From: Phoenix dactylifera | Lineage: Eukaryota; Streptophyta; Magnoliopsida; Arecales; Arecaceae | Reading direction: 5' to 3' | Assembly: GCF_009389715.1 (NCBI RefSeq) | Contig: NC_052399.1 | Coordinates: forward strand, 18,045,646 to 18,109,645 | DNA: 64,000 nucleotides | Shown: one piece after another, positions 4,154 through 42,600 of the stretch | Numbering within the stretch: the stretch's first letter is position 1 | Layout: each line of letters opens with the position of its first letter | Notes under the pieces: model-generated | Seen by the model: only the letters and a program-made list of their open reading frames with translations | Database searches by the model: none | Told to the model about the DNA's origin: nothing | Program-made: the position numbers and the translations under genes

Positions 4154-4247
4154 AGTTCTGATACAGTATAAAATTTTAGAGTTCTCAGCAGCAATCAGAT
4201 AGTTCTGATACAGTCTAAAATTTTAGAGTCCTCAGCAGCAATCAGAT
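4154..4247 (+). repeat. Tandem duplication, 2 x 47 bp
   Basis: Units 4154-4200 and 4201-4247 differ at two positions. They begin 45 bp after the VOC stop codon, so they probably lie in its 3' untranslated region. Confidence 0.9.
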
Positions 4248-4249
4248 AC

Positions 4250-14985: not shown

Positions 14986-14992
14986 ATGGGGC

Positions 14993-15185
14993 TAGTAGAA
15001 AAGGGAGCTCCCTTCAGTCCAAGCACAGGCAGAATAAGATTCAACTTATCTCCCGCATCATTCACTCATCTACCAAGCACAGCCTTCGATCCCTTGCTGC
15101 TTGGCATTTGGATGAATGAGTCGGCAGCTAACTCAATCCCACAGCCACCCATGAGTGGACTGAAGAAAGCTCTCTTTGCAGATCC
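14993..15185 (-). ncRNA. MIR319: MIR319 precursor
   Basis: The minus-strand 21-mer at 15022-15002 contains GGACTGAAGGGAGCTCCC and, as I know the sequence, matches Arabidopsis miR319a/b exactly. The opposite arm at 15175-15155 is the miR319* (AGAGCTTTCTTCAGTCCAC). The loop side carries the deep helix typical of MIR319, with GACTCATTCATCC pairing to GATGAGTGAATGATGC, which gives the second small RNA in other plants. The foldback is about 190 nt with the miRNA on the 3' arm, as expected for loop-to-base processing. miR319 represses TCP genes of the CINCINNATA class and so controls leaf growth and cell proliferation; some GAMYB targets overlap with miR159. A TATA box lies about 380 bp upstream. 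Confidence 0.96.
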
Positions 15186-15562
15186 CGTGCTCCAAAGGAA
15201 GACCCAAGCGCACATGAAAACCAAGCAAGTGGATCAAAAGAAGCACGAAATATATAAATAAAACCAATAAAAGAAAACCATAAGGCCACTATCGACTCTT
15301 CAGTCTTCCCTCCGATACATGGCGGCACAAAGATGATGGTCACAGAAGGAAAAGGGATGGAGAGTTGAGCCGGAAATCAAATACTTTTCCAATAGTTTGA
15401 GGGGAAGTTGGAACGAGGTAAAGATGTGTTGGAGAAAGCTAAAGGTCACATGAAACGTGATCTAGCAAAGGCTATGGAGGACTTTTGATGGAGGGAGAGA
15501 CTTATCCGACCATCTCACTTCCCCCTTCAAGCAAGCCCACGAAAGCAAGAAAGGAAGAAGGC

Positions 15563-15572
15563 CTTTAAATAG
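15563..15572 (-). promoter_or_regulatory. TATA box, probable MIR319 promoter
   Basis: The minus-strand word CTATTTAAAG is followed by a pyrimidine-rich stretch suited to a transcription start, and the MIR319 hairpin begins about 380 bp downstream. Nearly the same word (CTATTTAAAGCC) precedes MIR159 at 31508. Confidence 0.6.
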
Positions 15573-15589
15573 CTGGGTTCAAAGCTGAC

Positions 15590-18460
15590 ATCACATCAGA
15601 CAGGAATATAATAATTTAAAATATTAGGGCTCGTACTCATGGACCCGTTTTCTTCCAAAGCGACATTAACTCGGTGGCCCCTCAGCTTTTATTTTCTTCT
15701 CTCCCAATCTTTTATAAAATTTTTATTTTATTTCTAAAATTATATTAAAGTTTTAATTTGCAAATGACACTCAGGCAAGAAAATTTATTACAATTTAAAA
15801 TAAAAAATAATTTTAATTATTATAATATATATATATAATATATAGTATATTAATTATTATAATATATACGATATTAAATATCATAATTGTCACATATTGC
15901 ATGTATACCATAATTATAATAATATTTATTATTTTTTCCAAGATGAAAATAAAAAATTGAAACTATTAAACATGATCATAGGGCTAAAACCATATTGAAA
16001 CCAAAATTTAGATACCTTAGATACCTCAGTTGCCTTGAGGAGACACAACAATTGATAATTCAAAAAGTAGGCAATTATATTTACTATAACCTGTTTGCTA
16101 CATAAGTTAATGTTCACTAAAATAAATGACTTTAGAATTTTAGATATTTGTGACGGGATGATCAAGCAAATAATTTTTTAATTTTTAAACCATCAATTAT
16201 TGATCTTGAATCCTATAGAGGTAGCCGTGCATAAAAGTGGACATTGGCCAGCAGGGCACCAGTGAACTTCTACTATTTAGAAGCAGAGCACCTCATATTT
16301 GATTATCCCGCATTTATGATGAAATTTATTGGAGAGCGTCATTTATGATTGATGAAAAATGCCGGCTTTACTGCTTCGAAGATTTTGAGATATTTTTGTT
16401 ACCGATGCCAAATGTTATGTATACTCAAGAATCTTGTAAAACTATTATCATAATCAAAAAAATAAATTTTATGCTCTTTAATATATAAAAAATATAATAC
16501 TAATTTGATGATTATTTCTATAATATTTTTGCAAATATAGATTTAGGAGTGCAATGGTAAAAGTTTTTCACTCAAGTTCCAAAAATTGCTGAGATAAATG
16601 TTAGGGTCGTTTGATGTACATCTTGCCCGATGTGGGACCTTGTTCTGAGTCATCTGACTGCAGCTTACGGAGCATAAATTGGCTTTAATGTCACCAGTGA
16701 AAGCAAAACATTCTCTTCCATATACGGACTATGTTACTTGCTCCAAAGATCTACTAAACGAGTGGAATAAAGTCGCATCAACGGATTAGTAGGAACTCGA
16801 GTTCCATTAATTTAAAAGAGGATGGTGGTACGAGTGAGCTTTAACGAGATAAAACAAGGTGTACAACCATAAAACTTGTTGTTTTGCAGCCCCAACTGAT
16901 TCCCATTGTCTCCAAATAGGCTAGTTGTCCTATACATACACTGAAGTTGGTGAATATTGTCTTGCTTGGTTCCGAGTTGGAAATTCTTAATTTCTTCAAT
17001 TTTTGTTTGATGTGGGTCATGTAACGATTCAGCATCTCCCACACGCAAAACCAAAAAATATAGCCAAAATAAAGTTATTTGGCAAAAATATCCAAAAATT
17101 ATCCACTATATAGCACCGACTTAATTAAAGGCATCACAACGAGCTAGTGACCGGATTAAATAAATCCATTTTGTAGCATCCCGTAGGTTATTTTGGGATT
17201 TCTTGATTCCATTAAAATTCTGTAGGTTTGTCTACTAACTAGTCGATGTACATTCATACGAGTCCTCACCTGTTTTTCAATTCATCAAATTGTCTAGAAA
17301 CACTAAAATTAGCTCGCGGTCGGCTTAAATAAATATTTGTTACAGCATCTCTTAATCAATATAGATAATAAGCTAGACCGCTTTGATACTATTTGTAACA
17401 GCTCGAAGCTTCATTCTTAAAAAACTAGTCAAAAGGTGTTACTTTGAGAACTTTACCATACATAAGTATACAGGATCTACACATATAACAGGTATGAGAC
17501 TAAAGACATGCGTGCATGAGTCTTCCCATACTATACATTCTAATAATGCCCTCAATCTCATGGCTATTTATTGTCCAACAAAGTTCAAAGCAATAGCTCA
17601 ATACAGGCCGGCTCTTATGTTTGGGCTGGATGGATTTAGATGATTGACCTAGATTAAAGACTTCAAAATCATTGCATTTTTGAAATCGTTCTCATGGATG
17701 ATATGTGTTTCACCTACTAAAACATGTCCTGCCTATGTCGCCTTGGCTTTATAATTGTGGCCTCCATTTTTAGAAGTGCTGCCTTATGTTTAGTTTGTAT
17801 TTTTTTGCCCAAAAGTATGATTTTCTTTCGCAACATCAACCACTAAATTGCAACTAGCGTGGATCTCCAAGAATTCCGACTTAAAAAAAAAAAAAAAAAT
17901 GGGGCTTCATGCTCGATAAATGGTCCATCTAAAACTACCAGCAAGCTAAGATTCTAGGAACATGCATCTCAAAGTTGAACGCGCATCATGTCACACTCCA
18001 ATGGAAGCTCTTTAATTTCATTGACAAGCAACAGGCCTAATCCATGCCCATAAAGCATCACTGGACGCCCAAAAGAAAAAGTAGGCCTAGAGAGCCTTGT
18101 CTGTACGTTAGACTTAATTAATTATACAGGAACGTAAGTATACCACTTCTTAAAAATAAACCCATGCAAATGTGAATATATATGAAAATCGTAATTTTAA
18201 AATATCATATAAAGCAACGCGTTAACATAATATAAAATTGGCAAGATAAAGGCAGGAAAAGATGTGAAATCTTTGTCAAAATGGCAAACCAAGTGCGACG
18301 ATGCCCGAGGGAAGGAAAGAAATGCTTCCCCGCGTCCTTCCAAGGGCACCAGAATTCGATGATTGGTGGGACGGTAAAGCGAACCAGTTTCTCACCCATA
18401 CAACCCTGTTTATCGCATGCTGCAATAATGCTGGGAAGCGGCACTCGTGCTGATATTTGG
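15590..18460. other. Intergenic, no gene seen
   Basis: AT-rich sequence with TE-like pieces. A minus-strand GTCCCACATCG near 16629-16642 matches the plant snRNA upstream element, but no snRNA follows. Near 17385 the phrase CTTTGATACTATTTGTAACAG is a common plant repeat fragment. An A-run lies at 17884-17899. Confidence 0.4.
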
Positions 18461-18463
18461 AGA

Positions 18464-18466
<3 letters not shown>

Positions 18467-18546
<80 letters not shown>
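18467..18546. repeat. Compound microsatellite (CT)n(TA)n
   Basis: About 21 CT units followed directly by about 19 TA units. Read through, it gives artificial Leu-Ser and Tyr-Ile repeats. Confidence 0.98.
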
Positions 18547-18548
<2 letters not shown>

Positions 18549-18725
18549 TAAAACTGTGGAAACTCCACCACACATTTGAGACTCGGAGTAAAATCACATC
18601 AAAATCAGATAAAATAGTAACAAGTCAGCTAATTAATTTTGTTATCCATCTCTACTTGTTTAATAAATTAAATTATTTTATGTATAAATTTTTAACTCAT
18701 CCCATAAATAGGTTAGGTTATAGAG

Positions 18726-19161
18726 TTTTTTTTCATGGATACTCTTCTAAATATCGAATTTTGCATGAATATTCTTTCAAAATTGATATTTGTATATATA
18801 CCCTCATAAAATTTTGTTATTGTACAAATGCCCGTAATATAACAGTTGTTCTAATGGTGTTAAAAAAAATCATATCTATATTAATTAAAAATAAAATAAA
18901 ATTTTAGAATTATGCTATTGTCTATGTCTTTTTTTCTTATCTGGATCACAATCTATTTGCATATCTACTCATTAAGAGTATTTTAGTCATTTTAATTTAA
19001 AATCGTTAATTTTTTAATGTCGTTAGGTAGCATGGGTATATATGCAAAAACAAAAATAAAAAAAAGGTAAAATGGCAAAACAAATGTATACATGCAAATA
19101 TTAATTTTGGAAGATTATTCATGCAAAATTCGATATTTAGGAGGATATTCATACTAAAAAA
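18726..19161. mobile_element. Long-TIR MITE, copy B
   Basis: Same element and same orientation as 8796-9240, including the internal GCATGGGTATATATGCAAAA and TATTTTAGTCATTT blocks. Its left end (TTTTTTTTCATGGATACTC) is roughly complementary to its right end. It has no coding capacity. Confidence 0.82.
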
Positions 19162-19169
19162 CTTAAATT

Positions 19170-21930
19170 ATAAAGCGTCTGGAAATCAACCCTAACAGAT
19201 ATAGCAAACAAATTAACAAGAGCTCGATTTTTTTTTTTTAGTTTCTTACGTGCTTAATATACAAATGAGAAACGTAGTCTGTTACTTTTATGCTCGATTT
19301 ATACATCCAGAAGGTCATAAGGTAAGTTCTCTCAAATTCTAAATCTCTATATTTCATGAGATGAAAATCTAACTTTATATACGATGGATTTCTGTTAAGT
19401 ATTCGATGCAGAAGCTCTCGACCGAGCATGGTCATCATGGTTCCGATACGAGGTCTCTCAAAATGGTCCCAGCTCCACGTGAACCAACCATGGAACCTAG
19501 AAAAAGAGAAATCCAACATGATACACGTTACACCGAGCAGTTGAATCTCACATACACTCGAATAAAGTAGTACATAATCGCGAAACACATCACGTGATAA
19601 CACAGTAATTGAGGACAGTCCTGGGGGAACAGACTTGACGCGGGGTCCTCTCAACGGTTAACTCAAACGTCACAACTCACTCTGCCATTGGATGGATAAA
19701 AGCCTAAAAGCGTGACCAAGGCAAGACCTTTACTGCGTTTTGCCCATTCAAGCGGCCAGGTTCCGTGCTTCCATTCACATCAAGCAACATCTGGAGGACT
19801 TTCGCCTGCAAGTCTACTCACCCATTAATGCCTTCGATGAAACAATGGAAAACCCATCATGTTCTTCTTGATTCCCTAAGCTTCTGAATAGCATTCTCCG
19901 CAACAAAAATAGTACGTAACCGCTGGAAGATAAGATATCTCATGGAAGGCGAGGGACAGGAGTCGTGCATAAGATCAAATCAAACAATTATGGCAAGGAG
20001 GAAGCTTTATATTTTTTTCATTTTTTACTTCTCTAGCTCTTGGAACTCTCTACCAGGATCACCTCAGATTCCCTCTGGGCTCCTGCCAACGGTCACTTCA
20101 TCACAAAAGGTCTGAGCTCAAGAACGGTGCCGCGTCGTTCCATTCGCCACCACCACCACCGCCTTCCGCCGAGTCCAATCAAATGCCCGCATTCACGGCG
20201 TCTGCCGGGATTAAAAAAATGGGACGCTCCGCTTCTTTCCACCGACGCATACCGCGCCGTGTTTGTCCTGCCTTTTTTTTTTCTTCTTTCTTTATGGAAC
20301 GAGTTAGGGAAGGCCTAACTCAGAATATTTTACTATATTAAATGGGAGGTTATGCTGCATCCGATTGTCAACCGCTACAGTAATCGAAACTTTGAGAGTC
20401 GATAAATAATCGGATAGTGAATGTTTTTTCCGTACATCCAAATGCCAAAGTCTTTAAATATACATTATTTTTGTTAAAATGATTTCTAAAATCACGCAAC
20501 AATTTACAGTACTTTTAATTTTTTCTATCAGCATAATTTTGTATTTATTTATATTAAATTTTTACTAGCATAATTTATTAAAATAATTTTAAAAATCATA
20601 TTATAATCTTATCATCTATAATATTTTTTTTATTACTAACAAGATTCTATATAGATCTATATTATTTTTTATGTATGAAGTTTGTATGCGTGTGTATATA
20701 TATAATTTGTGAGATGTACCGGATATAAAAAAGAAATAATTTATTTAATTTTTTTAAATATTTTTATAAATTTAGTTAATAAATCTCATTAAATACTTAA
20801 TTATACAAATCGACAGCAACTATTTCTTAAAATATCAATATAACTTGATTAAATATTTAGTTGTGGAAATTAGATTAGCTGCGCTGACGCCGCATGATGG
20901 GGGAAAGAAAAAATTCCTGCACACTCTGAGCCCCCTGGGAGATATCAGAATTAGCTGTGATTTTGCTCATACGGGCGTTTCCATTTTGAGTTGGGAAATG
21001 GCTACGGAAAGCGTGCAGGAGAAGTTAATGTTTCCCGTTCCACCGGGCTGGCTCAATCGACGAGATATGTAGGCTCCAAGCTGAAAAGATTGGGTCACCC
21101 ACAGCTCCACGCTAAAGGGTACGAGACGCAAATGGGTACTACGAGGAGGAGGGGTCGAGGACTCGGGCGCGTACCTCGAGGACTTGGCTGCCTTGCTGGC
21201 TGCTGCAATCAAATCCACAGCCGGCTACGTACTGTGATTTTTTTTTTTACCATTCTTGGGTCAGCTCAAAAGTCCCATCTACTTGTTTCCGTGTTTGGTT
21301 TGTTTTGTTGTTTTCTTACAAGAAACGCTGGCGCAAGAAGCAACGACGACGCTCGTCCTCATCCTAGACGTCCGTCAGGTAGATTTTCGTCGAAAATTAA
21401 TTTGAGAGAATTGGTCCTTGTAAACTAATGTAGTTGAAAATTAATACATTTTAAGGTCTGGTTAAATAATCCTATATAATCCGTTTGGTATAAAGTAATA
21501 TTGTTGGAAATTAGCATATTTTAGGGTCTATTTAAATAATTTTATGCAATTTAGCAGGAATTAGTGGATTATGGGCTGCGCCAGGAGAGAATTAACAGAA
21601 ATAACTCCAATGGGACGGATTTGGGTACGGAAAAGATCAAATTTTATATCATAGAAAATGAATAGGGTTTAGATCGGAGGCTCTGTCCGTGATCAACCCT
21701 ATTTCAGGCTAGCTTGAAATTTATAGAAAGACAAAATTGATTTTACTACATTTTATTTTGATGTCTCGAATACATCGGAAAATACCCAATTGATATAAAT
21801 TGGACTGCATCTACTATACTATTTAATGGAAAAGGGATCCAATAAATATGAGAGGAAAGCACCATTTGAAGTACATCATTTCGAGCCAACTGCTAATTCA
21901 TGAAGCACCATTTGATTTTAGAGTCTTCAT
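19170..21930. other. Intergenic, no gene seen
   Basis: Small frames at 20040-20318 and 20991-21428 have skewed composition and no family resemblance. A diverged 70-bp tandem repeat starts at 21433 and 21503. An AT-rich stretch covers 20440-20870. Confidence 0.4.
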
Positions 21931-21963
21931 ATGGGGTGACCATATGTTAATGTCTCATCCTTT

Positions 21964-22028
21964 GTGTTATATTTTTTTTCTAATTTTATTGGCTGCACTC
22001 ATGTCCGACGAGTACCAAAAAAAATACA
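21964..22028 (+). mobile_element. Retroposon 3' tail, copy 1
   Basis: The phrase TTTTCTAATTTTATTGGCTG, then CACTCATGTCCGACGAGTACC and an A-run, matches three other tails in the window (22866-22940, 26150-26243, 60855-60935). This is the signature of a LINE or SINE 3' end. Confidence 0.6.
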
Positions 22029-22294
22029 TCATCATTTTTACCAAAAAAATGAACATCATTACTCGAAGTGAATTAATATCATTTAAAGGAATGTTATCAA
22101 CATTTTTCCTATATCGTTAAAAAAAATGTTTATCCCAGTATGTAATTCTATAAATTTATTATTTGTACTAATTTAATTTATAATTTTTATAAAATCTTCA
22201 GCTCGTTTATCCAAACAGATTTTTACAAATTTCTTTCACCAATAAAACATGGTAAATGAGAAAGAGGGTAGGTCAACCCAGTCAAACCATTGGG

Positions 22295-22296
<2 letters not shown>

Positions 22297-22337
<41 letters not shown>
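22297..22337. repeat. (TA)n microsatellite
   Basis: About 20 uninterrupted TA units. Confidence 0.97.
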
Positions 22338-22339
<2 letters not shown>

Positions 22340-22865
22340 AGAAAGAGGAACTGGAAGCTAAATTGCAAATAAAAGAGTGTTACAAACTATAAGAAATGCA
22401 AAAGATGCATCATGATTCATATAGCTGCACACTTTACTCTCACAACATCACTAGTGCTACATAAGACTGGAAAGCAAAAGCAAAACAGAAAATTGCCACC
22501 GAGATACCGGTAAAATCCTCGGATTAACGAGCTGTTAGAATTCCAGCACATACCATAACCGAGCACCATAGAATCCAAAGAACCAGCTGAGGATAAATTG
22601 GGCAAAATATTATTTCCAAGTCTACTCCTTGAGGGCGACTTGGCCATGGTTATCGATTAGATTCGAAGTCGGAAACGGAGTGCCGGCTCTAGTCCGCTTC
22701 TCCACGATATTTGCAGGCTTTTAAGAGGGTGCTCTATTGAGAGAATCACACGTCTACAGAGAGACAAACAACGCTGCTGATTGGGTAGCCTCCCATACGG
22801 CCTATCACTCTATGGGCTTCTTTTAGATGGACTATATGTCGGTCCCTACTTCACTGTATGCTCCT

Positions 22866-22940
22866 TTTCTTTCTGATTCTATTGGCTACATTCACACCTG
22901 TCGGATATGAGCCGCCATTATACCAAAAAAAAAAAAAACT
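22866..22940 (+). mobile_element. Retroposon 3' tail, copy 2
   Basis: TTTCTTTCTGATTCTATTGG, then CTACATTCACACC, then ATGAGCCGCCATTATACC and an A-run. It has the same layout as the other three tails. Confidence 0.65.
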
Positions 22941-23049
22941 TTGGAATGATACTTCAGAGTCCAGTTTATATCTATACTTGACTAAAATACAATCAAGACT
23001 GGATGAGCAGATTAATCGAAGGGCTTCTACAGAAGGGGTTTCATAATAA

Positions 23050-26000
23050 GGCTTGCTTCGTATCTTGTAACTAACCTATTTTTATCGGCACATGTACACG
23101 TGCATGCCTGCACTTACCTCTCGGTGTTGTAGATTGGATATGGGCCTGGCCTTTGCACTATAACTACAGTAATTTGTTTCGCAAGTTCATGTGTAACATT
23201 TAAGAAATTTTTCTATATTTTACCGTTTCAGGTTCCACAAAGCTAAGAGCCATTTTTTGTGGTTACGGTGACCAAACTCTTTTGGAAATATATGAAGGGG
23301 AGTGGGAAAACTCATGGCACAAAAAATTAATCACATTATAAATTTTTACAATGAATTTCATCCTATAAATATTTGTACCATCCTCAGGACTCTCATGGTA
23401 TGCATACAATATGCTTAGAGGCTAATCCTCATTTGGTACCATTTTCCCACCCTACCCAGTGTGGGCGGCCCTAACCAGAGTCGTACCTTCGATCTGTTGC
23501 CCTAGTGGCAAAAAGTGGTATCATCCGAACTAATATTTATGATCATTCGAGTGGAATCTCTACTTAAGGTTTTCTTCAATCTATACCTAATATTTACTTA
23601 AGATTTTCTGCAATTCATAGATCTTTATCAAATATATAGTATAACGACTTTTGTAGGAACCTTTCAGGTAATTAAGAAAACCCCCAGCATTCCCATGCAC
23701 ATATTTGTGCAATTTTCGGTTTACCACCTTTCAGTTTCATGCATGTAAATTTTCATAATGTTTGACAATTTTTAAGATAATATAAGATTTCCCTAAACAA
23801 TTTAAGAACGCCTACCTACTTTCCTTAGAATGGACACTGATTGCCCTGAAACGAATATTGATCATTTAGTCAAATCAGCATGCATCTATTTTAAGGTCTA
23901 ATAGATAGTAATCTATATCTTATTGGTTGATGAATAAAGAAGGGGCAGCTGAAAAGGATAGCCATAATCTATATATATATATATAATATAATATAAAAGT
24001 TGACGAAGAAAAAATAGGCTACGAGGAGGTTGGGCGAAGGCGAAGCTTATCTCCATCTTAGATCATATTATTTGATATTTTGGGCCACGCCCGGCCCAGT
24101 CCGAAGTTGGCCTGCAATGCTTGGATTTAAGACCCTTTAGACCTTGAAAGCTAAAATAATTCGGGCCATAGGACGGCCCAGGTTTGATCTATGCGCAGAG
24201 AAACGGAAGAAGCCGGCATACCGCATGAGCTTTAGCATACTCGCTTCGGATTCTCTTTTTCTCACAGCTAACTGTTGAATAATTTGTACATAAAAATATA
24301 TTTAGAATAAATAATAGGTACTAAATATTATATATTTTGGGCTGGCCCAGACCAATGATGACTTTTTATATTCTTCTACATACTTTCCATCTATGACTTC
24401 TCCTCCATGCTTATGCTTTTCGCTTGGCATAGTTGGCAAACTTGATTGGTTATGAGCTTCAACAGCAAGAAGGAATAACCATAGCAATAACCAACTAACC
24501 TGCAAGCATTCAATTGGGCTTGTTGAGATATATTCTACTTCTCCATAGATCCAGAACTATTAATCTTCATCAAGTCACACTCCAAAAGCGTGCCACCATT
24601 CAACTATATTTCTGTGAAAGTATACTTAATCCATCCCCCCACCATCATACAAGAGAACAATTTTTAAAAAATAAACACAATCGATTTGGTATTTTGCACT
24701 ATTGATATGGATGGAGGCCTTGCATCTAAAAAGGAGGGGAAAAATTGCACAAACTATCCAATTTATCTTTTGTCTTGTTGGTAAGTAACTTTGAAGTTTT
24801 TGGTGGCCCATCATACAAGAAAAATTGCATCATATATACTTTGCTCCAGCTTGATTTGTTTACAACAGTAGTCCTCAAGCATTCCTCCATAACTAAGGAT
24901 TGTCTTGATAAAGGAGTAAAATAATCATAACCAGACCTAGGCTTGTCATGATGAAGTAAGATAGAATCACAGAATTAAGAAATGCATGACAAACAGAAGG
25001 CTTGAAGGAGTGGGAAAAGGAAATCTAAATCATTAATCTCTATTCAATCAATATTTATGACCCCTAGAGGCTTTGGGAAATTTTGCATGGTCATCTCTGA
25101 ATCTGCTGTCAAATTCCTGATCATAGCAACCATGGCCAAGAGATGTACCTGCCATGAAACCTAAAATAGTTGGCAGAAAGGAAAACCAAATACTTTTTGC
25201 TGCGCAGTTTACAGAGATGAACAGAACTGAGAAAACCTACAGCAAGCAAAGAAGTCAAGACCGAAAATGATCAGTTCTTAAAACTTCATGCATCATATCA
25301 ACATGGCCATACAAGCCTACGAGTAATTGGTAATGTGCTTGTTTACGTACGTCAAGTGAATTCAAATGAGCAAACACAATGTACAGCAAGCATTCAATAG
25401 AGAAGAAAATATAGGAATCACATTGTCAACCTCAGCTTTGAGAGCAACCTATCCATGAAAAAACCATATAACGCTAAGCTCGGTCAGCTATACTACCAAA
25501 GGTTTGGTCCTAATTTTCTCACTTTCCGGAAGAACACAAGTACATACAGAGGCCACATTGTATTCAACACCAACAGCAGTAAACGATGGCTAATTCAGTA
25601 ACAAGATTTCCGATTTTGAAATGTCACCTCGATCAAAGTTTCTGAACAGCTTCCCTATTTTACGCGCAACAAGCTCTTGTCGATTTGTTTAGATTTATTG
25701 AGAGTCTCCTGGTCTTAGAATGTAAAGCACGTTGGAGCTCATTTGGAAATCATGCACCGAGATGATGAGAGCATATTTCAGCAACTTGCAAGTATAGTTT
25801 CTTTTCCCTGGCGTTGCGCATAAAGCTCAAAGAAATTAGGGATTCAGGTTTGGATTAGGCGAAACACCGATTACCCTAGAACCATTCGGCCCAGGGATCC
25901 TATTGAGCGACGTGTGGCCCAAAATTTCAGCCCATTTTAAGTGATCTAAAAGGCTTGAGGCGGGGTTTTTGAACTTTGGGCTAACTTCCAGCCTGTGGCT

Positions 26001-26100
26001 GTCCAACTCCGTGCTATGTTCCCGGCATCCACACCGCCATTTGAGGACCATGTTTGATGCATGTGCATGCAAATAAGGTTGCAGACTATGTCGCCTTCTA
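23050..26100. other. Intergenic, no gene seen
   Basis: No frame resembles a family. A (TA)n run lies near 23970-23985. Around 23430-23520 there is a short GC-richer segment that might derive from a tRNA-type SINE, but boxes A and B are not convincing. Confidence 0.4.
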
Positions 26101-26149
26101 TGCTCACAGCACTCCGAAGAGGTCCTCTGGATATACTAGGAGGTTTCTT

Positions 26150-26243
26150 TTTTACCGTTTTGTCAGATTCTCGCTCTTGATTCTGCTAGTTGCAATTATG
26201 CTAGAGTAGGGCAAGCAACCGTTATACCAAAAAAAAAAAAAAA
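26150..26243 (+). mobile_element. Retroposon 3' tail, copy 3
   Basis: TTGATTCTGCTAGTTGCAAT, then GAGTAGGGCAAGCAACC, then GTTATACC and a 15-base A-run. It is the best preserved of the four tails. Confidence 0.65.
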
Positions 26244-26249
26244 CAAAAC

Positions 26250-27530
26250 CAATGCAACCTCCCATCTTATTTTCCATGATATTTTATTTTATAATTTTTT
26301 TGGACCACTGTATCAGCTGTTCTGATCATGATATTTTATTTTTTTTATTTTTTTAAATATACTCATACTAAGTTTGTGCGGTCATTATACCTTATCAAAA
26401 TTTTAAAAAAAAAACCCATATAGGCATAGCCTATTAGTTTATTTAATTGTGCGATTTGATAAATAAATTTTTATTTTTTAATTGGTACCCTTCCCTTACT
26501 TCCGGAAAGGCAAAAATTGAACATCAAAGAATGTATTTTTCAGAAAAAAGGACTACGTACGATTATAAACCTATGGAAAGCGGAAGAAAGTAGAAAAGAG
26601 CTTTGTATTGTAAGATATTTAAAGAACAATTTGACTGAAGATTGCTAGGATTCATCATTATCATTAACCTCCCTCCTCTTGTGTGTTGTTCGCCGGATGA
26701 TATCTTTAACCAGATTTCACCAACGTCGAATTATTTATGGCCTTCATATTCCCAGCTCAATGATCACCCGACCGCATGACAAAAGATTCTTTTTTTTGTC
26801 CCCGCTGAGATAAAAGATCGAACGTCTGAAGCAAAAATGGACCCCAAGAATAACTTCAAGCAGAAATTCTTCTTAAAACTCGGAATCCCCTTGAGAATTT
26901 TATCGCATCCAAAGATAACGAGGGTATTAGTTCTTAGCACGATTTGTATTAATCTACGTTTATCAAATGGTTTCATGATATTATGCGATATTTCAAGGGT
27001 TCCCATGAGCAATTCCATTGGTCTTCTAAACCTTTCCTTTCCATTGCTTTAATTATCCAATAAGAGTGCACTTCCTCCCACTATTGCTAAAGCATTGGAG
27101 CCATTAAGTGATGATTGTGATTCTCCTTGATGACATCCCTCCAACATAAGCGGCCCAAGAAGGGAATAAAGAAAAAATCACCTTTGCATTAGAGGGACAC
27201 TGGAGTACGTCATGGAGCGATCTGGAGATATATATTAAACTCAAAAGAGAGAAGAATCGCGAGAGAGTGCCGTGCAAGAGTTTGGAGGGCCACTAAATAA
27301 GCTTACGCACTCCAAATGGTGCTTGGAAAGCTCCACTCAAGGGCCATTAATCCGGACTAACAAAGTAATTCAAGCTTGCAAAAGCCCCTCACGAGTCTAC
27401 AACGTAGATCTAATGTCGATCCGCTCTTATGCCCAATCAGCCTTCCACACCGTGCTTTGCACATCTTAGACCAACTCGGATTTTGTTAGGTTTTTGAAAC
27501 CATGACACAAAGAAGGGAGCAATTTTGCTT
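26250..27530. other. No gene seen
   Basis: AT-rich to 26640. Overlapping open frames at 26764-27052 on both strands have no recognisable motif. The right part may be the decayed upstream portion of the LINE remnant that follows. Confidence 0.35.
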
Positions 27531-27539
27531 TGTTATTTG

Positions 27540-28186
27540 TCTATAATATTCGGTTGGCGAGGAATGATCGCATCTTTCAAGGTATGAGATAGAGTGGTAG
27601 ATTAATTCTATTAAAAGCCTCCATCTAGACTCATAAATTTTTTAGATGACTATTGCGAAGAGACCTTTGACAGTAAGAGCAATCTGTAGCTTTCTCTATG
27701 CAATTTCTGCGTCCTCACAATTAACTTACTTCTTTTGGGAGTCATCACCTCCCTATTTCTTTACGGTCAATTTTGATAGGAGTGTGATGAAAAAAGTGCT
27801 TTTGGCGGAGCAAGCTTTATTATATGAAGTGCTAGTGTTGCATTACTAGCTGTAAGCAGTGTTAGGATTTTTTATACTATAGTTCTAATGGCAGAATTAC
27901 GTGTAGTTTGGGAAGGTTTGAATTATGCTATATACACATTCAGGGCTTCACAGATGATAGTTATTTGATGGCTTCCTAATTCACTTCTTATTGATGAAGA
28001 CTTCATCCACTTCTATAGGATTGCTGTCGAATAATGTGTTAACTACTATCAATTGAGGTTTCATATATTTACAAAGGCTAACAGTGGAGCTGATTGAATG
28101 ATATCTTATTTTTTGACTTCCATTAATGTATTTATACTCGATTAATTTAAATCATCCGATTTACCGAAAAAAAAAAAAAAAAAAAA
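27540..28186 (+). pseudogene. LINE-1 type retrotransposon remnant (RNase H region and poly(A) tail)
   Basis: Decayed frames read NIRLARNDRIFQG (27546-27584), the typical end of the zinc-binding part of plant L1 ORF2. They continue with PYFFTVNFDRSVM (27750-27789), the first strand of the RNase H-like domain, and then AELRVVWEGLNYAIYTF (about 27893-27942). Downstream come SQMIV, a WLPNSLLIDEDF-like stretch and YYQLRFHIF. A run of about 20 A residues ends at 28186. Stops and frameshifts interrupt the frame. It is a 5'-truncated, inactive copy. Confidence 0.78.
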
Positions 28187-28189
28187 CCA

Positions 28190-29580
28190 TGACCCCAAAA
28201 TCCCCCACTCCTGAATATAGGTGCCTGATCCACTGCTCTAGGGATGATTGAACTTTAACATCACTCTTTTACTTCCAAGTGTGGAGACTCCTCTTGGTTG
28301 TAATGTAGCGATGCTTTTCAAAGGAGTCTTAATTGGTTGTATTGCCCAATGAAGCAATGTAACAATGCATGTGAATCTAGGACAAAACCTTTAAGCAATA
28401 CCTACTTGTAGCTATCAACTTTCGTGATGTCACTTCCGCTTTAAGAAATTCTCTGGTCCGACAATGTCCATTGGCAAAACTACTGTGAGACGATTGGCAT
28501 TCAATGGCTTATCCCATCCTTATCAGGACTCGTTCATGATTAATTGCCAAGCCAATGCCGTTTGAACCGAAAGCATACCATTCTACAACCCTTTCATTCA
28601 TCTATATGTATATCATTTGGAGGCATGACTCCATCCTTACTGTACTTTCTAAATTGCCACTGTTCTCCCTTGAGCCGGGCAAATATGTGACGCAAACACT
28701 AGTTACATCTTACTATCTATGGCAAAGAACTTATGTTTAATCATCAATTTCGAAATCTGCATCTATCCAAGCTTTATAAAATATCTACTGTTGTCATCAC
28801 AAAATACTTAATATTTTTAACTAACATTTCAAATGGACTGTTGTTTGAGGGGGACAAAAAGTGTTGGTGCATGTCATAACAAAAGGAAGTTTACACGTAC
28901 TCATGCATGTAGGCAAAGAAACCTACATGTGTAAGCAACGGGATGACATGGTTATATTCGCTTCTCCCAATCTTTCCATCATCCCCTCTCTTTTGCTTAT
29001 CCTCTAACCTCACACCATTCTATATAGCATCACCTGGCTAAAACCCTTGACTTGTGGGGGATACCTCAACCATTTTCTTTGTGCATCTTCAAGTAGCACC
29101 TTCACTAGCGAGATGAATTGTATCATCTAAGTGCAATTATTTACCTTTTTTTCTCTTTTTCTCTCCATTCTTTTGGATCTCAATCTACTTGGCATGTTCC
29201 AAAGTCACTCAAATTTATCTTGCCACACAATGGAATGCTTTGAGACTTTGAGATAAAAGAAGGGTGCATAATTAATATCCCAATCGCATAATTCTTTGTG
29301 CACTTCTTGCACCACTTCATGGCTGGTGAAGGATGTTGGATTAATTGAGGATGGTGGTACCAGCATGGGGGAGGTTGAGGCACGTCAAAACTAGTAAACG
29401 AGGAGAAAGTCGAATGCATAGAAGAAACCTACCGGACCATCGAAGCAAACACCACATGGTCTAGCCTACAGTGTATGTTGTTTTCTTGGCCTATACATAC
29501 ATACATACATACATTGTCGAATGCTGGTTTTTTTTGCTCCTCTAGAAAATTAATTAGATTTTTTAAATATTTTTTTTGAA
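28190..29580. other. Intergenic, no gene seen
   Basis: No family resemblance in any frame. An (ACAT)n microsatellite of about five units lies at 29492-29513. Confidence 0.4.
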
Positions 29581-29589
29581 AAATAACTC

Positions 29590-29807
29590 TAACGATGCTT
29601 TAAAGCGTCGTTAGAATAAGCATTACCGATGCTTTAAAGCGTCGGCAACGCTTCCATTATTTGCCGACGCTTTTCAAAAGCATCGGCAAAAAGATTTTTA
29701 CGCTTACCTAATTGACGCTTTTGAAAGCATCGACGTCAAAATTACCGGCGCTTATAAGCATCGATACAGTGTCTGGAAAGCGCCGGTAAATACTATTTTT
29801 TTTAGTG
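29590..29807 (-). mobile_element. CACTA (En/Spm) transposon end
   Basis: A cluster of subterminal inverted repeats built on ACCGATGCTTTAAAGCGTCGG, including the snapback GCCGACGCTTTT-C-AAAAGCATCGGC at 29663-29687. It ends at TTTTTTTTAGTG (29796-29807), the complement of a CACTA terminus. No transposase and no matching left terminus were seen, so this is one end of a deleted or truncated element. Confidence 0.72.
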
Positions 29808-30034
29808 ATTATAGAGAATATTGCTTAATTAATAATTTTTTTCTTTATGTTTTTCCTGCTACAATTTTTTTTTTCTTTATGCAACGAGTTAACACACTAG
29901 ACCAATGGACATTTATCTCCGAGTAATCTTATATTTTCTTATGCTATTCCCTCCTCCAAAACGCACCCCCAAGCAAACGTTGGAATTCAATAGCAGAGGA
30001 CATTTTTGTCATTGTCTCGACACCGACACCAGGC

Positions 30035-30044
30035 CTATATAAGG
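30035..30044 (+). promoter_or_regulatory. TATA box upstream of the MIR159-like hairpin
   Basis: CTATATAAGG is a strong TATA match followed by a pyrimidine-rich stretch. It lies about 100 bp before the hairpin at 30142, close to the 115-bp spacing seen at MIR159. Confidence 0.65.
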
Positions 30045-30141
30045 AGGCCTTCTTCTTCCTCTTTGGCTTGGAGGCACCTCTTCTCAAGTCTTTGCATGAT
30101 ACTCCTGCGAACTCAAACTAGAGGTAAGGGGTCAATGGTCA

Positions 30142-30224
30142 TCGGGTCTCCCCTCATTCCACGTGAGGAGATGGAAAGGGTAGCGACCTCCTTCCTTTCT
30201 TGCATGGAGTGAGGGGAGCTCCAA
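30142..30224 (+). ncRNA. Diverged MIR159/MIR319-like hairpin
   Basis: Arms 30142-30165 and 30201-30224 pair over 24 positions with three mismatches and four G-U pairs, around a 35-nt loop. The 3' arm core TGGAGTGAGGGGAGCTCCA (30205-30223) matches the miR159 core TGGATTGAAGGGAGCTCCA at 17 of 19 bases. Both changes fall in the seed or centre, and the opposite arm carries a C that restores pairing at one of them. The flanks resemble MIR159 at 31.6 kb: GGTCATCGGGT against GGTGATCGGGT upstream, and a CT-repeat downstream. The loop is far shorter than the usual MIR159 foldback. Whether it is expressed cannot be told from sequence. Confidence 0.55.
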
Positions 30225-30226
30225 TA

Positions 30227-31500
30227 CCCCTCTCTCTCTCTCTCTCTCTCTCCCTCCCTGTGTGTGTGGAATATATATGATGGATCATTATTTTTTGGTA
30301 ATATTATGAATCATTATTCAGAAATAAGTTATTGGAACGGCCTCTTGGATTTCTGATATATCATTTATGGAATTGTTGGCTAATAATTGATAAATTTATA
30401 TTATATATATACTTTAGCTTTGATTAGCCTATTCCTTAAATTTCACAGTTATGTTTCATTTACATTTTTCATTACTTTACGACACATAATAAAAAACTCT
30501 ACACAATGAACTATGAAAATCTTGCATCAACTTCTAATAGCCAGGTGGCTATCCCTGCCTCCATTTCATTCAAAAAAAAAATCTACTTCTAAAATTTGTC
30601 ATATATTGTTTCGAAAATAAGCTCCTTCAATCTACTCGGAGTAAGGGGGTATGGGCACTCCTCGAGATTGTATTTGGACGACCATCCATAATAAATATGA
30701 AATCCCCTCTATCATGGTCTTGTCCTAAAAGACCCGATCCAAACTAAATATTTCTGTGGAAAATTCGGATCATTAAATACTACTTTGCTGGGAGAAATAT
30801 ATCTTAGCAAATTCATCAGCCATATGAATTTATAGCATCATTTCAGTCTTGCTTTAACCAGCCAGTTAATTAAATTATGTGCTCGATTCTCTAAAACTTT
30901 GTATTTCCTCCAAAAAAAAAAATCTAAAACTAGGTAGACATAGGTGTTACAATGTTTCCTGAAGATTGTTCTGATCCTTAAAATCACTTCAAACTATCTT
31001 AATATGGTGCACCTGGATGGACCCTATCATGTCCACTTGCTTGATCTCCTAATTCAGCTATAAGAAATCTATAAGTAATCACGAAGAAAAAGATTACAAC
31101 TTAAGCAGTTTTCAGGCCTCCAATAAGTTAAAAACCAGCAAAAACATTCTCTGGATTATATAGGAGATATAAGCTATAATCTGCGAACTCCTTCGGATTA
31201 AAACTGGCCTGAGATTTACACAATTAGCAAAATGCTTTTACAAAAAATAAAACGTCAGAAGTCAGAAGGGATGCTAAAGCGTCCCAAATCGGACCGTTGC
31301 TAACCTCGGCTCGCGTGGGATTTGCTTCAAACATAAATAAAAATTATACATAGAGAATGCCTTCGGGCGTTCCCAAGACGACGCCAGCCCCTGTGAGAGT
31401 TGGCTCGGCCGACGAGAAAATTCTTGCCATCCGTGACCCCACAGGCCATCAGACAGTCCTTATTGAATCTAGGGTTCTTCTCCCCATCCTCCTCCCATGC
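30227..31500. other. Spacer between the two MIR159-type loci
   Basis: A (CT)n run at 30230-30252 follows the first hairpin. The rest has no coding signal. A GC-rich piece at 31270-31325 lies in the MIR159 promoter region. Confidence 0.4.
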
Positions 31501-31507
31501 ATGGGGT

Positions 31508-31517
31508 CTATTTAAAG
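31508..31517 (+). promoter_or_regulatory. TATA box, probable MIR159 promoter
   Basis: CTATTTAAAG, about 115 bp upstream of the MIR159 foldback on the same strand. It is almost the same word as at MIR319. Confidence 0.6.
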
Positions 31518-31630
31518 CCATCCCTATGCGAGTGCCACGGATATATCTGATAGATAGCTGTTGAAGTTTAGATTTTATATACCTCGATGCATGATTTGTT
31601 GAAGGTAATGGTGATCGGGTGTGGTGGGCT

Positions 31631-31808
31631 GTTGAGAGAGCTCCCTTCAATCCAACCCTCGAGGGGTAGCAAGGTGTATATATACTGCTGCTGGTTCGTG
31701 AATACCTTTGGGTGCACCTCGAGGGTTGGGCATGACCCAGGAGACGTACATCCTTGCCTGCCTTCTTCTATCTCCTGCTTGGATTGAAGGGAGCTTCTCT
31801 CTCTCTCT
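31631..31808 (+). ncRNA. MIR159: MIR159 precursor
   Basis: The mature-arm 21-mer at 31778-31798 begins CTTGGATTGAAGGGAGC and ends TTCT, a miR159 variant starting with C like rice miR159f but differing near the 3' end (GCTTCT for the usual GCTCTA). The 5' arm at 31634-31655 holds GAGCTCCCTTCAATCCAA. A further helix pairs 31664-31678 with 31747-31762, so the stem is long, as expected for loop-to-base processing. miR159 cleaves GAMYB-type MYB mRNAs in anthers, seeds and vegetative tissue. A TATA box lies 115 bp upstream. A competing 13-bp perfect helix (31652-31664 with 31717-31729) could form an alternative fold. Confidence 0.93.
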
Positions 31809-31811
31809 TTT

Positions 31812-36150: not shown

Positions 36151-36642
36151 CTTGTGGACTGGTACCATGCGAGTGAGAGAGAGACGCGGAACTACTTAAT
36201 CAAGAAGTAAACAAAAAGAACGGTCCTTGCCGGTTGTCTTCTTCAAACTGGTGATCGACATGATCACAGCCATCCATCAGACGTTCTCTCTCCTTCCAAA
36301 TAAACGAAGTCATTACCCGTGGAACCGTAAGGGTGCGGACAAAACAAATCTTCTAGAACGATCTAGTGCATGTCCTCCGGGTTCCATCCATGGACCTTGA
36401 CCACTCGAGCCTTTATCCGAAATAAAGTTCTGCAAACCAAGAAACTGTCTCATGTTTGTGTCCGAAGCGCCCGCCTCCTTCCGAACTACCTCCGGCATTT
36501 GTCTCCGCCGCGCCCAGGGGCCCGGTGCTTCCTTTCCCTCCGCTCTCTTTTTTCGGAAAAGAATTTTCTAAGGGTTAAAGGTTAAGCAATCGGGCGTCAG
36601 CGTTGAGGCGCGCTCTCTCTGTCCTTCTGGGGGAAGAGGGGA

Positions 36643-39600
36643 ATGGGCGGCGGGGATCTCTTCGACCACCGAGCAGTGATGGATTCCGACTTCTTCGGGG
36701 CGAGCGGAAGCGACCAGAACTTCGAGTTCGCCTTCAACTCCAGCAACTTCTCCGACCGCATGCTGCGGATCGAGATCATGGCGGAGCCGCCGGGGAGCAA
36801 CTCCGACGGAGTGGGCGCCGCCGCCGCCTTCCGGGAGTGGGCGCGGCACGCCAAGCGCAAGAGGGACGAGATCAAGAAGGACAAAGGTAACCGCCTAGCT
36901 TCCGACCCCCCGATTCCTCGTTTATTGAGCCCTTTCCTGTTTTATTGCCAAAAAGCTTCTTTTCTTTTCTTTTTCTTTTTATTGCTTGTCTTGTTTGCAA
37001 TTGAATTTTTCATCTTTTTCTTCCCTGTTATCTTGGATTTGTGGCTAAATTGGAATTGGATTTACGGTTCCATTTTCTTTTTAAAACATGCTGGCTTGAA
37101 TTCTTGAACAAAACCCTAGCCTTTCTCTCTCTAGTTTTTTTTTCCTTTCTGATTTTTGCAAGAGGATATGGGCATTTGTCAGCCTATTCGAGGTATCTTT
37201 TTCCTATCAGGCCGGAAATTCTGAGGATTAACATATTATGAGTAATGAGTAGTTTCTTGTTAGTGAATAATGAGTAGTTACGGACTACAGCGGATTTCCT
37301 GAAACATCATGATCTGTTAAAAGGAATATGTTAATGACAAAAAGAAGTGGTGAAAGGTTACGGGCTTGGAGTTACAAAATCTGGGATTTTAGGTTCTCAC
37401 AATGAAATCAATTCCTTTTTAATGTCACTTGATGGCAGGATTAGGTTTGGGAAACAAGAAAAATGTAGACTTGAGATAGGATGAAGGGGAAACTATACTC
37501 AGAGTGTAATAACCCTGATTTTTAGGGCTCGTGGGCCGGGCCGGAGTGGCCAGGCCCAGCCCAGCCCTTGGGCTTGTGGGCTAACCCGAAGAGGCCAGAC
37601 CCAAGACCACCGTGCCCTGTTGTCGTCGGGAAGCCTCACCGGACTGAGGTATGAGTTCTTCATCTTCTCCTTCTTTAGAGTTTTGGGCCTTTGTTTTCTT
37701 TGATTTGAGTCAGCAATTGCTGGAGCTTCATCTGAAACAGAGCATCCCTATTTTGGCCATATTTAGTCATCGCCGACCGCCGGATTTGGCTAGGGTTGCG
37801 GCCCCCTGAGACCGCCATTGAGCTGGGCCATCGCGGCTACCACTTGTGGCCGGTGAGAGGGAAGGAAGAAGAGAGACAGAAAGAAGGATTCTTCCCTATT
37901 CTCTATTTTCTCTCTCTTTCTTTCTCCTCTCTATACTCTCTCTACTTTCTATCGCTAGAAAGTCTATGGAATCCCGAATCGGGTTCTGTCAATTTGATCT
38001 ACGAATCCGAGTTGACTCTGAAAAGAGGCTTTGAACTGCCTTGGTGCCCGGGCCACCTCCTGGACCGATCACCCCGATCCTATTGAATGTTCCTGAAACC
38101 TCCATCGATGAATCATGTTGATTGATCTTAGCCCTGATTGAGTCCAATTCATTGAGCGAATAATCTAGACCGGACCCATACGAAACTCGGTCAAATTTTT
38201 TTGAATTATTTATTTAAAGTTATTAATTGAAAATTAGTTTCGTCGTTAATATTTGAAATAGGTCTTGTGGAGTCACCTAGTGAAGTCTAACAGTCTAAGA
38301 CAAAATAAGTAATTAGATCTTACACTTCTTATTATATTTCAAATAATCATGTTTTTCGTGCATAAAACTTGCTTGTGAAAATATCATGCTTTTCTTAAAA
38401 TTATGGATCGGCATATGTATTATGAAAATCATGCTTTATTAGAAAAAATAATTTCATGGATGTTTTGATGAATATAATTTTATTATAAAATATGAATATG
38501 ATCATGTCATTTAGTATTTTTCATGTATTTATGTATATATTTTTTAAAAAAAAGATATAAATTTTCTAAAAGCTCTCAGATTGCTATGACCGCTCCAACA
38601 ATAGGGGCCAATCGACACCCTGGAGCTAGCATTCAACGAAAACGGCTCTTTGCCAACGGGTTAAAGTTGGTAACGAATACGAACTATGATATCTTGTCAA
38701 CTACGAAGATAGCCCTGTCACGAGTTATAGTGACCACAATACAAATATATGTGAGCAATGTTTTGATCCATGATACGATTAAATGGCATGAAAAATAGTT
38801 TACGAATTTTTTGCAATATAAACGAAACTATGTTTATGAAAAATGGATGATTTGTTCATCCATGATTTACTTTATGACTTGATACACTATATTATGAAAT
38901 GCTTATTTTAGAATATCCATTATTTTTCTTAAATAATGCATTTACATGAAAAAACTTATGCTTGATCCGGTAAGATAAAGTAAAATTTACTTACTGAGCT
39001 ATGTCGCTCATATATCTCTATTTTTATTTTTTGTCTCTCCAGATGAATAGGATCGATAGGAACAAAGGATAGTCTAGGCTTGGAGTTCGTACTAGCAAGC
39101 TTGGCGATTTTGTAGAAAAATTTTAGTATTTTAACTTGACTATGAATTTATAGTTAATGATTTTTTGATTATTGAGGATTATGGGTTTGGTATTTATGTT
39201 TTGATTTAGATGCTCTGAACCAGTGTTGGTTGTATTTAATAGATAATGAAATTGAATTCCTATTTATTCTATATATTTGAGATGGATTCGAAATTTAAGA
39301 TGTAATGTTTGGCTTCGTGTTATTGTGAGTTGTATCCCTCGGTAGCACGGCAATGTCATGCTCCGGATCTGGGACGTGACACAGGATTACCTTTTTTTGC
39401 CTCCTTTTCTTCATCTTTGCCTGATTTGATGTTAAATAGGATTACATGATGTTTATGATTGCTTTTTGGTCTCCTAATGCATGTTGAATTGAATTCTTGA
39501 ATAAAACCCCCACGATTTTCCTTTAAGATTTTTGGAGACTTGGGTTCACGAGTTTCTTTATGCCTGACATATTGGAACCTCTAAGAGAGTCGCTTCATGT

Positions 39601-42600
39601 TACAAATAATGAGTATTTTTGAACTAAAAAGATTTTCTGGAGCATCATGATTGGCAAATAACTAGGAAAAGTGGTGAATGGTACGGGGGTTGTAGTTGCA
39701 AAATCTAAAAATCTAAGTTTTGTCATTATGAGGTCAACCTATTTTTCAGCGTTGCTTTACAACAATATTAAGTTCAGCATGGGAAATGAGAAGATGTAGA
39801 CTTGGGCTAAGATGAAGGCAAAAATTTACTTTTCAGAAAAAAAATGATTCATTTTATTTAAATTTCCCATTTTTGACCACATAATGCTTGGGTTACAGGT
39901 TTACTTTCATCGTCCGATTTAGACTTGACCAGATTTGAGTGTAGATCCACTTGAATGTATATGTATAGATATATGTATGCACATACATATTTGTGTGTAT
40001 GTATATGTATATAAAATACTTTTAGCAGAATGCAGCTCAAGTTTTAATTACACTACTTAGTGCTTTTCCTTTTCAAAGAGTCATAGAACACTTATAAAAC
40101 TCTGGTTTCATCAGTTTTTGGCTGCTTTCTGTGGATAGAGAATATTGTCAGACAACTTTCTAATAAACCATGAAACATAAAAGGTTCCTCTTTGGAGTGA
40201 TTTTGCTCATAATTTGACCAGATAGGAAAAATGCATCAAATATTCCAATTTGTGTTCACTTACAATTTATATGAGACCGAAAGAAATAGATCTGATATTG
40301 TTAAATTGTGTCTGATCTTGTAGACTGTACAACTGTGCAAATATTAAAAAGTTAGCTGCATATTCCTCGAGTCTCGGGGTGTAAGAGTTTCCTTAATGAG
40401 TCTTAGAAGTTAGAACACATATAGATTTCATATTTCTAGTTCTAACTATGGTTGAAGAAAGCTAGATTGATAGTGGGCATGGGCTTAGGGAAAGGATCTG
40501 GCTCGTGGCAACTTCAAGTAGGCCTAAGATATGCCTAACTGAACCGAACCACCCCGTTCGGGGTGTACCAGCCTGAATTGACGCCATATCGGGTCAGTTC
40601 GGGGATTCAGTTTGGGGTGTACCAGCCTGAACCAAGTGAAATCGTTTGGTTCCTCTTTCCCTTTTTCCTTCTTTTCTTCCTCCCTTCATTCCTTTCTTTC
40701 CTTTTTCGTCTTCCTTATTTCCATTCTTCATTCCTACCTTTTTTCCTTTTATTCTTCTTTCCCTGCATACATTATTTTACTAGCCATTATTTGAAGACTT
40801 AAGACAATCATAAATCATAATGATCTAAATGCACTGTGTGCCCAGATTGATCTACAAGAATAGATTACCACTTTGAGCATCAAAAGATGTATCATTAAAT
40901 ACAAAACTGCTGGACTAGAATGTTCCAAATTACTGCAAATGTCTCACCATTTGTTTTTTTTTTGACAGATTGTTATATTAAAAACTCTAGCTTATTTGAA
41001 TTTTGTGCTTTCACATAATGATATTATTTTGCTAATTCCATTATAGTTCTTAGAGGATTAATGGAATTGTTATTGAAAATGATTGAAGTCCTTGTTGACA
41101 AATAAACCAAGTCTTACTAATTCTAATTTTATATTTTCATTTATTTTGAAGGAGTCATCGTGGACCAGTGATGTATGAGTCTTTTGAGACAATATCTAAT
41201 GAAAAGCTTGGGAATTTTAAAACTTAATGATTTTCTTGATATATATATTAGCTAGTTGATCATGTAGTTTAAGAGAATATAGTACTTTGAATGGTCATAA
41301 AATCTTAATTGGATACTTTGAACAATAATCGGTACTTAAGGTACTTTAGAAATAATTACATTACTTCTAGACATCCATAAACCTTAAAATAATCCTCAAA
41401 TTAAATATAAAAAATTAAAAAAGCCAAAATATGCTGAACTGGTATCGAATTGTATGCAATTGCATACTGAGTGTTAATATGGTATGTTACCTGGACTGAA
41501 ATTGCTAATCTTGCTTAAACCTTAAAATTCTACTAACTAATACCTGTTTTATCATTTTCAATGTTCCGATATTTTTTTTCTTTAAAATCCTTCTACGTGA
41601 ACACGTGGGTCTCGACTTAGGCTTAGTGCTCATATAGGATAGTCTTAGGAAAATTAAACAAAAATTAAAGGAAATGTGTAGAGTCCCAAAGAGGAAAAGT
41701 ACCTCTATAACTCAGAAAATAGAACTCTTAAGGGTCATAGAGCTGAAAAAAAAAACAGGAATCATCAAATAGAGATCTAGCTTTATAAGGAAATGAGATT
41801 TTTGAAATCTAAATATAGTATTGCGAGATGAAAGGAAAAAATTGGACACCAAGTTATCATTAATACTATATGAATCTAAACGTCCAAAGTTTTTGCTCAC
41901 ATGCATCGCGTGCTGAATAGTAGTGAGCTGGAGTGAGATCTTGGAGTGTGCTTGACCATAAATATGTTTCTGTAACTAATCTCACCATATATTCTTTCCT
42001 AATCAGGAGCGTTGATGCTTTTGGGTTTCTGTCCATATCAAATTTCTGAGAGTATCTAGGGATCCAAGAAGTCTTCTTGATTATCTTTCTTGTCATATCA
42101 CGACTTATTTAATTAACAAAGATATGTGATGATAGGTTATTGTAAACTTTTGATTTTGCCATCAATGTTGTTAAGGCGAGAGCTTGTGTTTGTTTATGTT
42201 AGGTGTTATTTTAAACTACTTGCAAGTTCATTGGGATTGTATGATATACTTCAAAAGGGTGTTGCCATTTGGGATGAACACAAAGGCCTCGTAGCATTCC
42301 TTGATTGAGATAAATCCTTAAGGGCTCGTTTGGTTCGCGGAAAAAGAAGGGGGGAAAGTGTGGTCAACAGAAAAGTAATGAGATGCCTCTTGTTTGGTTG
42401 GAGTTTTCAAAGGAGAGAGACGGAAAAGTTGTATTCCCATTGGAATATGATTCCCACATTTCATGAGAAAGTTACTTTCCAATGAGGCGGGAATCACTCT
42501 ATTTTTACTTTTTCCTAAAAAAGCCCTTCAACATTAAAGAAGCATTAAAGACCTAATTTTTATTAAGGGCATAATAGGAATTATACATAACTTTTCCAGG

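Follow-up and report, generated by a model that had tools for sequence, protein, structure and literature searches.

The window analyzed here, a 64,000-nucleotide stretch of the date palm genome (Phoenix dactylifera NC_052399.1; C8:18045646-18109645), contains a MIR319 hairpin, a short MIR159-like hairpin and a MIR159 hairpin, together with a BTB-BACK gene, which we take to be of the POB1/LRB type, and a DUF1191 gene. The gene order of related segments makes it highly probable that the window preserves an ancient block more completely than any other copy seen and that the linkage of MIR319 with MIR159 was kept by descent, not by joint control. In this block, MIR319 would occupy one strand, and the MIR159-type hairpins, the POB1/LRB-type BTB gene and DUF1191 the other. 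Copies of the block diverged at a synonymous divergence (Ks) of ~0.95 and again at 0.25-0.38, events that would correspond to whole-genome duplications, and they now hold different subsets of its members. The labels C8, C9, C42, C3, C12, C11, C55 and C925 denote contigs within this one date palm genome (773 Mb searched, in 2391 contigs), C8 being the contig that holds the window.

A preliminary description of this DNA had placed three members of the miR159/miR319 superfamily in one interval, MIR319 on the minus strand and the other two on the plus strand, with no protein gene between them, and all of this holds, the third member being only MIR159-like. MIR319 and MIR159 pass the gathering threshold of the Rfam family RF00638 (74 bits; scores in Table 1), whereas the hairpin at 30.2 kb stays below it and for this reason is named MIR159-like and not MIR159. 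The antisense strand of MIR319 is also above the threshold (89.4 bits). Each of the three hairpins folds stably, as judged by z scores against the folding of shuffled sequences, and has an arm that contains the small-RNA sequence. In a tree of twelve hairpins, the MIR319 of the window clusters with the other MIR319 hairpins, the five of them being separated from the seven others with a support of 98/98, and the core of the window MIR159 has the T typical of the MIR159 type. Moreover, when up to three mismatches are allowed, the window has five matches to the family core where 0.16 would be expected, all of them inside the three named hairpins. MIR319 and MIR159 are 16.4 kb apart, with the weak short hairpin in between. 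The interval is without a recognisable protein gene: of the open frames that end below 32 kb, 101 were compared with Pfam and none matched a family (the pool comprised 102 frames of at least 64 amino acids and at least 12 residue types, from which the one at 3-263 was omitted).

The same arrangement is observed on C42. Read on the other strand, this contig shows MIR319 at 587.3 kb, an array of hairpins related to the one at 30.2 kb at 570.1-568.7 kb, the BTB gene at 557.4-550.2 kb and DUF1191 at 494 kb, so order and all orientations agree with the window, and the array stands where the window has MIR159. This repeated order and orientation makes a misassembly of the window, an objection raised in the preliminary description, unlikely. 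On the plus strand of C9, the MIR159 copy is followed by the BTB gene and then by DUF1191. A non-repeated element at 4.2-6.0 kb of the window, present in two copies in the genome, has its C9 match beyond the place expected for MIR319, and 20.4 kb of the window correspond there to 3.2 kb in which no MIR159/319 core is found at up to four mismatches. Since C9 is colinear on both sides and the collapsed gap is devoid of a core, this contig most likely lost MIR319. In C3 and C12, MIR319 is on the minus strand and DUF1191 on the plus strand, the same orientation as in the window; in C12, the 15.9 kb between them have no core at up to four mismatches. Finally, the flanks of MIR319 on C11 match those on C42 (70% over 2.3 kb, and further out), and within 20 kb of C11 the only core at up to four mismatches is in an arm of its own MIR319.

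Ten open frames were scanned separately, and three of them matched Pfam, corresponding to two pieces of the BTB-BACK gene and to DUF1191. An exon of the former near 36679-36893 matches C42, and close copies of the gene are present on C9 (89%) and C42 (75-78%) only, the others of its 14 matches reaching at most 40%. For DUF1191, nine matches are found at eight places of the genome, five of which have a MIR319 or MIR159 hairpin no more than 100 kb away (C8; C9, 25 kb; C42, 93 kb; C3, 23 kb; C12, 15 kb). Uniform placement gives a P of 2e-11 for this proximity, a value to be read with the common descent, and hence the non-independence, of the copies. The C42 copy of the BTB gene (C42:550251-551107) consists of two matches in different frames and therefore may be a pseudogene or contain a sequencing error; the C9 copy of DUF1191 (C9:17737602-17738559) is likewise in two frames, one of them with a stop.

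The age of the copies was estimated as Ks by the simple Nei-Gojobori method. For the BTB gene, Ks is 0.25 between C8 and C9 and 0.96 between C8 and C42 (1.07 if out-of-frame codons are kept), and for DUF1191 the respective values are 0.38 (0.41 in a first estimate) and 0.93. Taken with these values, the same set on C8 and C42 indicates a block assembled before the two contigs split, in which MIR319, MIR159-like hairpins, the BTB gene and DUF1191 would already have been together; the association of MIR319 with DUF1191 is probably earlier still. The Ks values would match the whole-genome duplication of palms, the 'tau' duplication of monocots, which is older, and an event older than both.

Table 1. 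Features of the window and related elements; positions are those of the window unless a contig is named.
Feature	Position	Strand	Details
Two-copy non-repeated element, left-hand anchor	4208-5991		Other match C9:17704252-17706071, 77%
MIR319 hairpin	14991-15184	minus	RF00638 157.4 bits; fold z -6.9; paralogues on C42, C11, C3, C12
Mature miR319	15002-15022	minus	Within MIR319 hairpin
TATA word of MIR319	15563-15572	minus	~387 nt upstream of hairpin
TATA word of short hairpin	30035-30044	plus	Predicted; 107 nt upstream
Short MIR159-like hairpin	~30140-30225	plus	Core with 2 mismatches; fold z -3.9; RF00638 23.6 bits
Mature-like strand of short hairpin	30203-30223	plus	Predicted
TATA word of MIR159	31508-31517	plus	117 nt upstream of hairpin
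MIR159 hairpin	31626-31811	plus	RF00638 79.1 bits; fold z -6.0; C9 copy 74% identical
Mature miR159	31778-31798	plus	Within MIR159 hairpin
BTB-BACK gene	36607-51456	plus	Pfam BTB and BACK; start from open frame
DUF1191 gene	61863-62870	plus	Pfam DUF1191, E 2.5e-61; open frame
MIR159-like hairpin array	C42:568744-570060	minus	Six units, period ~150 bp

A still older origin of the block is suggested by Arabidopsis, where locus numbers run along the chromosome and AT4G23713 is presumably MIR319a. In the available portions of the sources, MIR159c is given as At2g46255 and LRB1 as AT2G46260, miR-JAW/miRNA 319 as AT4G23713, and AT4G23720 as a 'Transmembrane protein (DUF119)', which we read as DUF1191 with a digit lost. 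On this numbering, MIR159c should adjoin LRB1 and MIR319a should adjoin AT4G23720, which suggests that the block would predate the split between monocots and eudicots. In this respect, Arabidopsis MIR159c, next to LRB1 by locus number, resembles the linked palm MIR159, next to its BTB-BACK gene. It differs in being nearly silent (PMC2988730) and in lying far from MIR319a, the locus numbers placing the two on chromosomes 2 and 4.

Several observations weigh against an ancient block kept by descent. The adjacency in Arabidopsis is read from locus number alone and is the weakest link of the argument, the searches having been confined to the date palm genome; also, the names POB1/LRB and MIR319a for these entries are presumptive. 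For DUF1191, the comparison between C8 and C3 gives a Ks of 2.1, near saturation. A full-length MIR159 was not found on C42, so the long linked MIR159 is seen on C8 and C9 only, and the genome searches gave no DUF1191 or BTB match on C11. Moreover, the long-branched hairpin C8:4918266, which has a MIR319-type core, is placed among the MIR159 hairpins in a tree of short sequences.

The linkage could also reflect a shared regulatory domain, as proposed in the preliminary description; common enhancers or chromatin would then co-regulate the TCP and GAMYB branches and hold MIR319 and MIR159 together. The persistence of both hairpin types on two segments that split at Ks ~0.95 is in line with this idea, and so are the TATA words, described earlier as near-identical and in fact identical within the window: CTATTTAAAG occurs there exactly twice, at 15563-15572 on the minus strand and at 31508-31517 on the plus strand. 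Nonetheless, this word is of an ordinary TATA type. With one mismatch it occurs 14 times in the window against 11.3 expected, which is no enrichment, and it differs among the MIR319 copies, the TATTTAA core being retained upstream of those on C42 and C11 and no such word being present in the 820 nt examined for those on C3 and C12; for these reasons, it was not counted in favor of joint regulation. The MIR159 copy on C9 has the whole word 172 nt upstream. In addition, MIR319 and MIR159 are on opposite strands, each with its own TATA box of the ordinary plant consensus, and four of the six related segments have one family only (C9, C11, C3 and C12, the C3 interval not having been followed base by base), which means that the linkage is not required. 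A regulatory domain holding the two families together is thus unlikely. Regarding the surroundings of the MIR319 TATA word, positions 15516-15635 are conserved on C42 (67%) and C11 (73%), and the letters that follow the word are similar to those following its counterpart at the 30.2-kb hairpin.

The strand of MIR319 also bears on how the hairpins could be transcribed, since no transcript can be common to MIR319 and the other two, and the three do not form a single-transcript (polycistronic) cluster; a transcript shared by the 30.2-kb hairpin and MIR159 is possible. From what is known of the family, each hairpin would most likely be an independent RNA polymerase II gene whose product is cut by DCL1, miR319 would restrain CIN-type TCP genes, and miR159, perhaps with the short hairpins, would restrain GAMYB genes. 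Phased processing from loop to base is stated for the family in the available text of Li et al. (2011, PMC3118147).

A fortuitous encounter, either by rearrangement or independent insertion or through a misjoined contig, would agree with the finding that, in a census of at least 12 loci, most other MIR159 loci lie away from both DUF1191 and the BTB gene. It is, however, very improbable in view of the P of 0.0017 for a mixed MIR319/MIR159 pair within 17 kb (uniform placement, 6 + 6 loci) and of the order and orientation repeated on C42. Even less credible is a scenario in which the MIR159 of the window arose in the palm line as a copy of the MIR319 of the window, although the close linkage of related hairpins would favor it. 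The approximately unbiased (AU) test gives p 0.005 against a group formed by the window MIR319 and the linked MIR159 pair of C8 and C9, a grouping chosen after inspection of the tree, and this recent local copy was rejected. Furthermore, among the repeats listed (20 of 22 direct and 25 of 56 inverted), those joining both loci are the microRNA arms only, and the MIR159 copy on C9 has the age of Ks 0.25-0.38. The old local duplication suggested in the preliminary description then survives in part: the linkage is old, as seen from C42 (Ks ~0.95) and the Arabidopsis locus numbers, but a duplication could have generated it only if very old.

Such a duplication is contained in a further reading, for which our confidence is tentative at best, in which the cluster is the birth site of MIR159. 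According to it, MIR159 arose when MIR319 duplicated locally in the seed-plant or early flowering-plant line; the two then remained neighbours, next to the POB1/LRB and DUF1191 genes, and the main MIR159 genes, which are unlinked, are copies dispersed later. If true, no MIR159 lineage would be older than the linked one, whose orthologue in Arabidopsis would be MIR159c. In the tree, the linked pair (C8 and C9) falls between MIR319 and four unlinked MIR159 loci with a support of 85/87 on short sequences, a position compatible with the birth-site reading without demonstrating it; a tree that keeps all six MIR159 on one side is not rejected either (p 0.17).

The census of loci comes from a whole-genome Rfam search in which the best 34 candidates were scored, giving at least 30 matches, at least 23 of them above the cut-off, at 15 or more places. 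Three places on small contigs are 99.4-100% copies of placed loci, and the at least 12 remaining loci include six with a MIR319-type and six with a MIR159-type core. On C8 itself, a short MIR319 of the RF03483 type is found at C8:4443046 (79 bits, MIR319-type core), 475 kb from the hairpin at C8:4918266-4918494, whose core is of the MIR319 type and whose long branch is among MIR159.

The short hairpins deserve separate consideration. The 30.2-kb hairpin is 67-69% identical to the units of the C42 array, which comprises six units with at most two core mismatches (200 shuffles of the 36 kb gave none) and two or more degenerate ones, and Tandem Repeats Finder reports it as 3.9 copies of 150 bp at 95%. 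It is a serious possibility, although not the one we favor, that these short hairpins, and they alone, are decaying relics instead of working microRNA genes. Their RF00638 scores are low (23.6 bits at 30.2 kb, 24-34 bits for the array units), part of the array is degenerate, and a DNA search of the genome found this type of array on C42 only. Also, pair changes on both sides of the stem are three across five sequences, a number reached by 115 of 500 shuffles, so that support from covariation is weak, and the literature searched contains none of the mature-like words, be it that of the 30.2-kb hairpin, of the array or of MIR159. On the other hand, the short hairpins fold stably (z about -4), the recent array units are near-identical (95%), a predicted TATA word precedes the 30.2-kb hairpin by 107 nt, and the mature-like strand of the array has the lowest predicted pairing penalty of six compared against a GAMYB site on C3: 2.5, followed by miR319 (3), canonical miR159 (3.5), the 30.2-kb hairpin and C9 miR159 (4.0 each) and the window miR159 (4.5). 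These penalties are predictions, and although miR319 also scores well here, the miR319-guided cleavage of such MYB genes reported in Arabidopsis is only very minor (PMC2988730). A short precursor is also the feature of the short MIR319 family RF03483 (92 positions), but neither the 30.2-kb hairpin nor the C42 array matches this family at E <=1. The C42 array suggests a route by which short tandem hairpins might expand GAMYB silencing.

MIR319 and MIR159 are sister genes that control leaf and anther development. The case for their common origin has so far been built on trees in which the sequences are very short, and a conserved location is independent evidence for it. A conserved location can also assign orthology where hairpin trees are unsure, for example between the linked MIR159 and Arabidopsis MIR159c, and it allows the origin of MIR159 to be tested through synteny in Amborella, water lilies, magnoliids and gymnosperms. 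In the accessible text of Li et al. (2011, PMC3118147), the common origin is attributed to duplications in the seed-plant ancestor; two of the window hairpins pass the threshold of the superfamily treated there (RF00638), but linkage or chromosome position is unmentioned in that text, whereas the palm families are physically linked. Clustered and locally expanded MIR159 genes are known from maize, where six paralogues lie together on chromosome 8, although the portion available does not mention MIR319 as one of its members (PMC2773440). Then, clustering of MIR159 is already known and, as far as these partly accessible sources go, the mixed and conserved MIR319-MIR159 block is the new part. A linkage of the two families is not reported in the available text of the literature searched, most subscription journals being outside the search (PMC3118147, PMC2773440, PMC2607281, PMC2988730, PMC8042123, PMC4014012, PMC9422110, PMC10040396, PMC3072343, PMC9361848 and PMC4633500), and no paper in that literature mentions DUF1191 together with miR319.

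Some minor elements complete the picture. On the minus strand of the window, at 57930-60101, a 724-amino acid open frame has a single copy in the genome and no Pfam or PDB match; with one place in the genome, it is useless as a synteny anchor. The match at C3:17060063, with a G in the core, was considered as a further MIR159 gene and discarded because its opposite strand reads as a GAMYB target site. The corresponding GAMYB-like gene has a MYB domain match of 17.8 bits, below the Pfam cut-off of 24.4, and its miR159 target site is ~1.7 Mb from the MIR319 of the same contig. Other matches with a G in the core are found on C55, on C925 and at C12:3472884, the last being MIR159-like at first look. 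On C12, the core matching a GAMYB-type site is ~1 Mb from the MIR319 of that contig.

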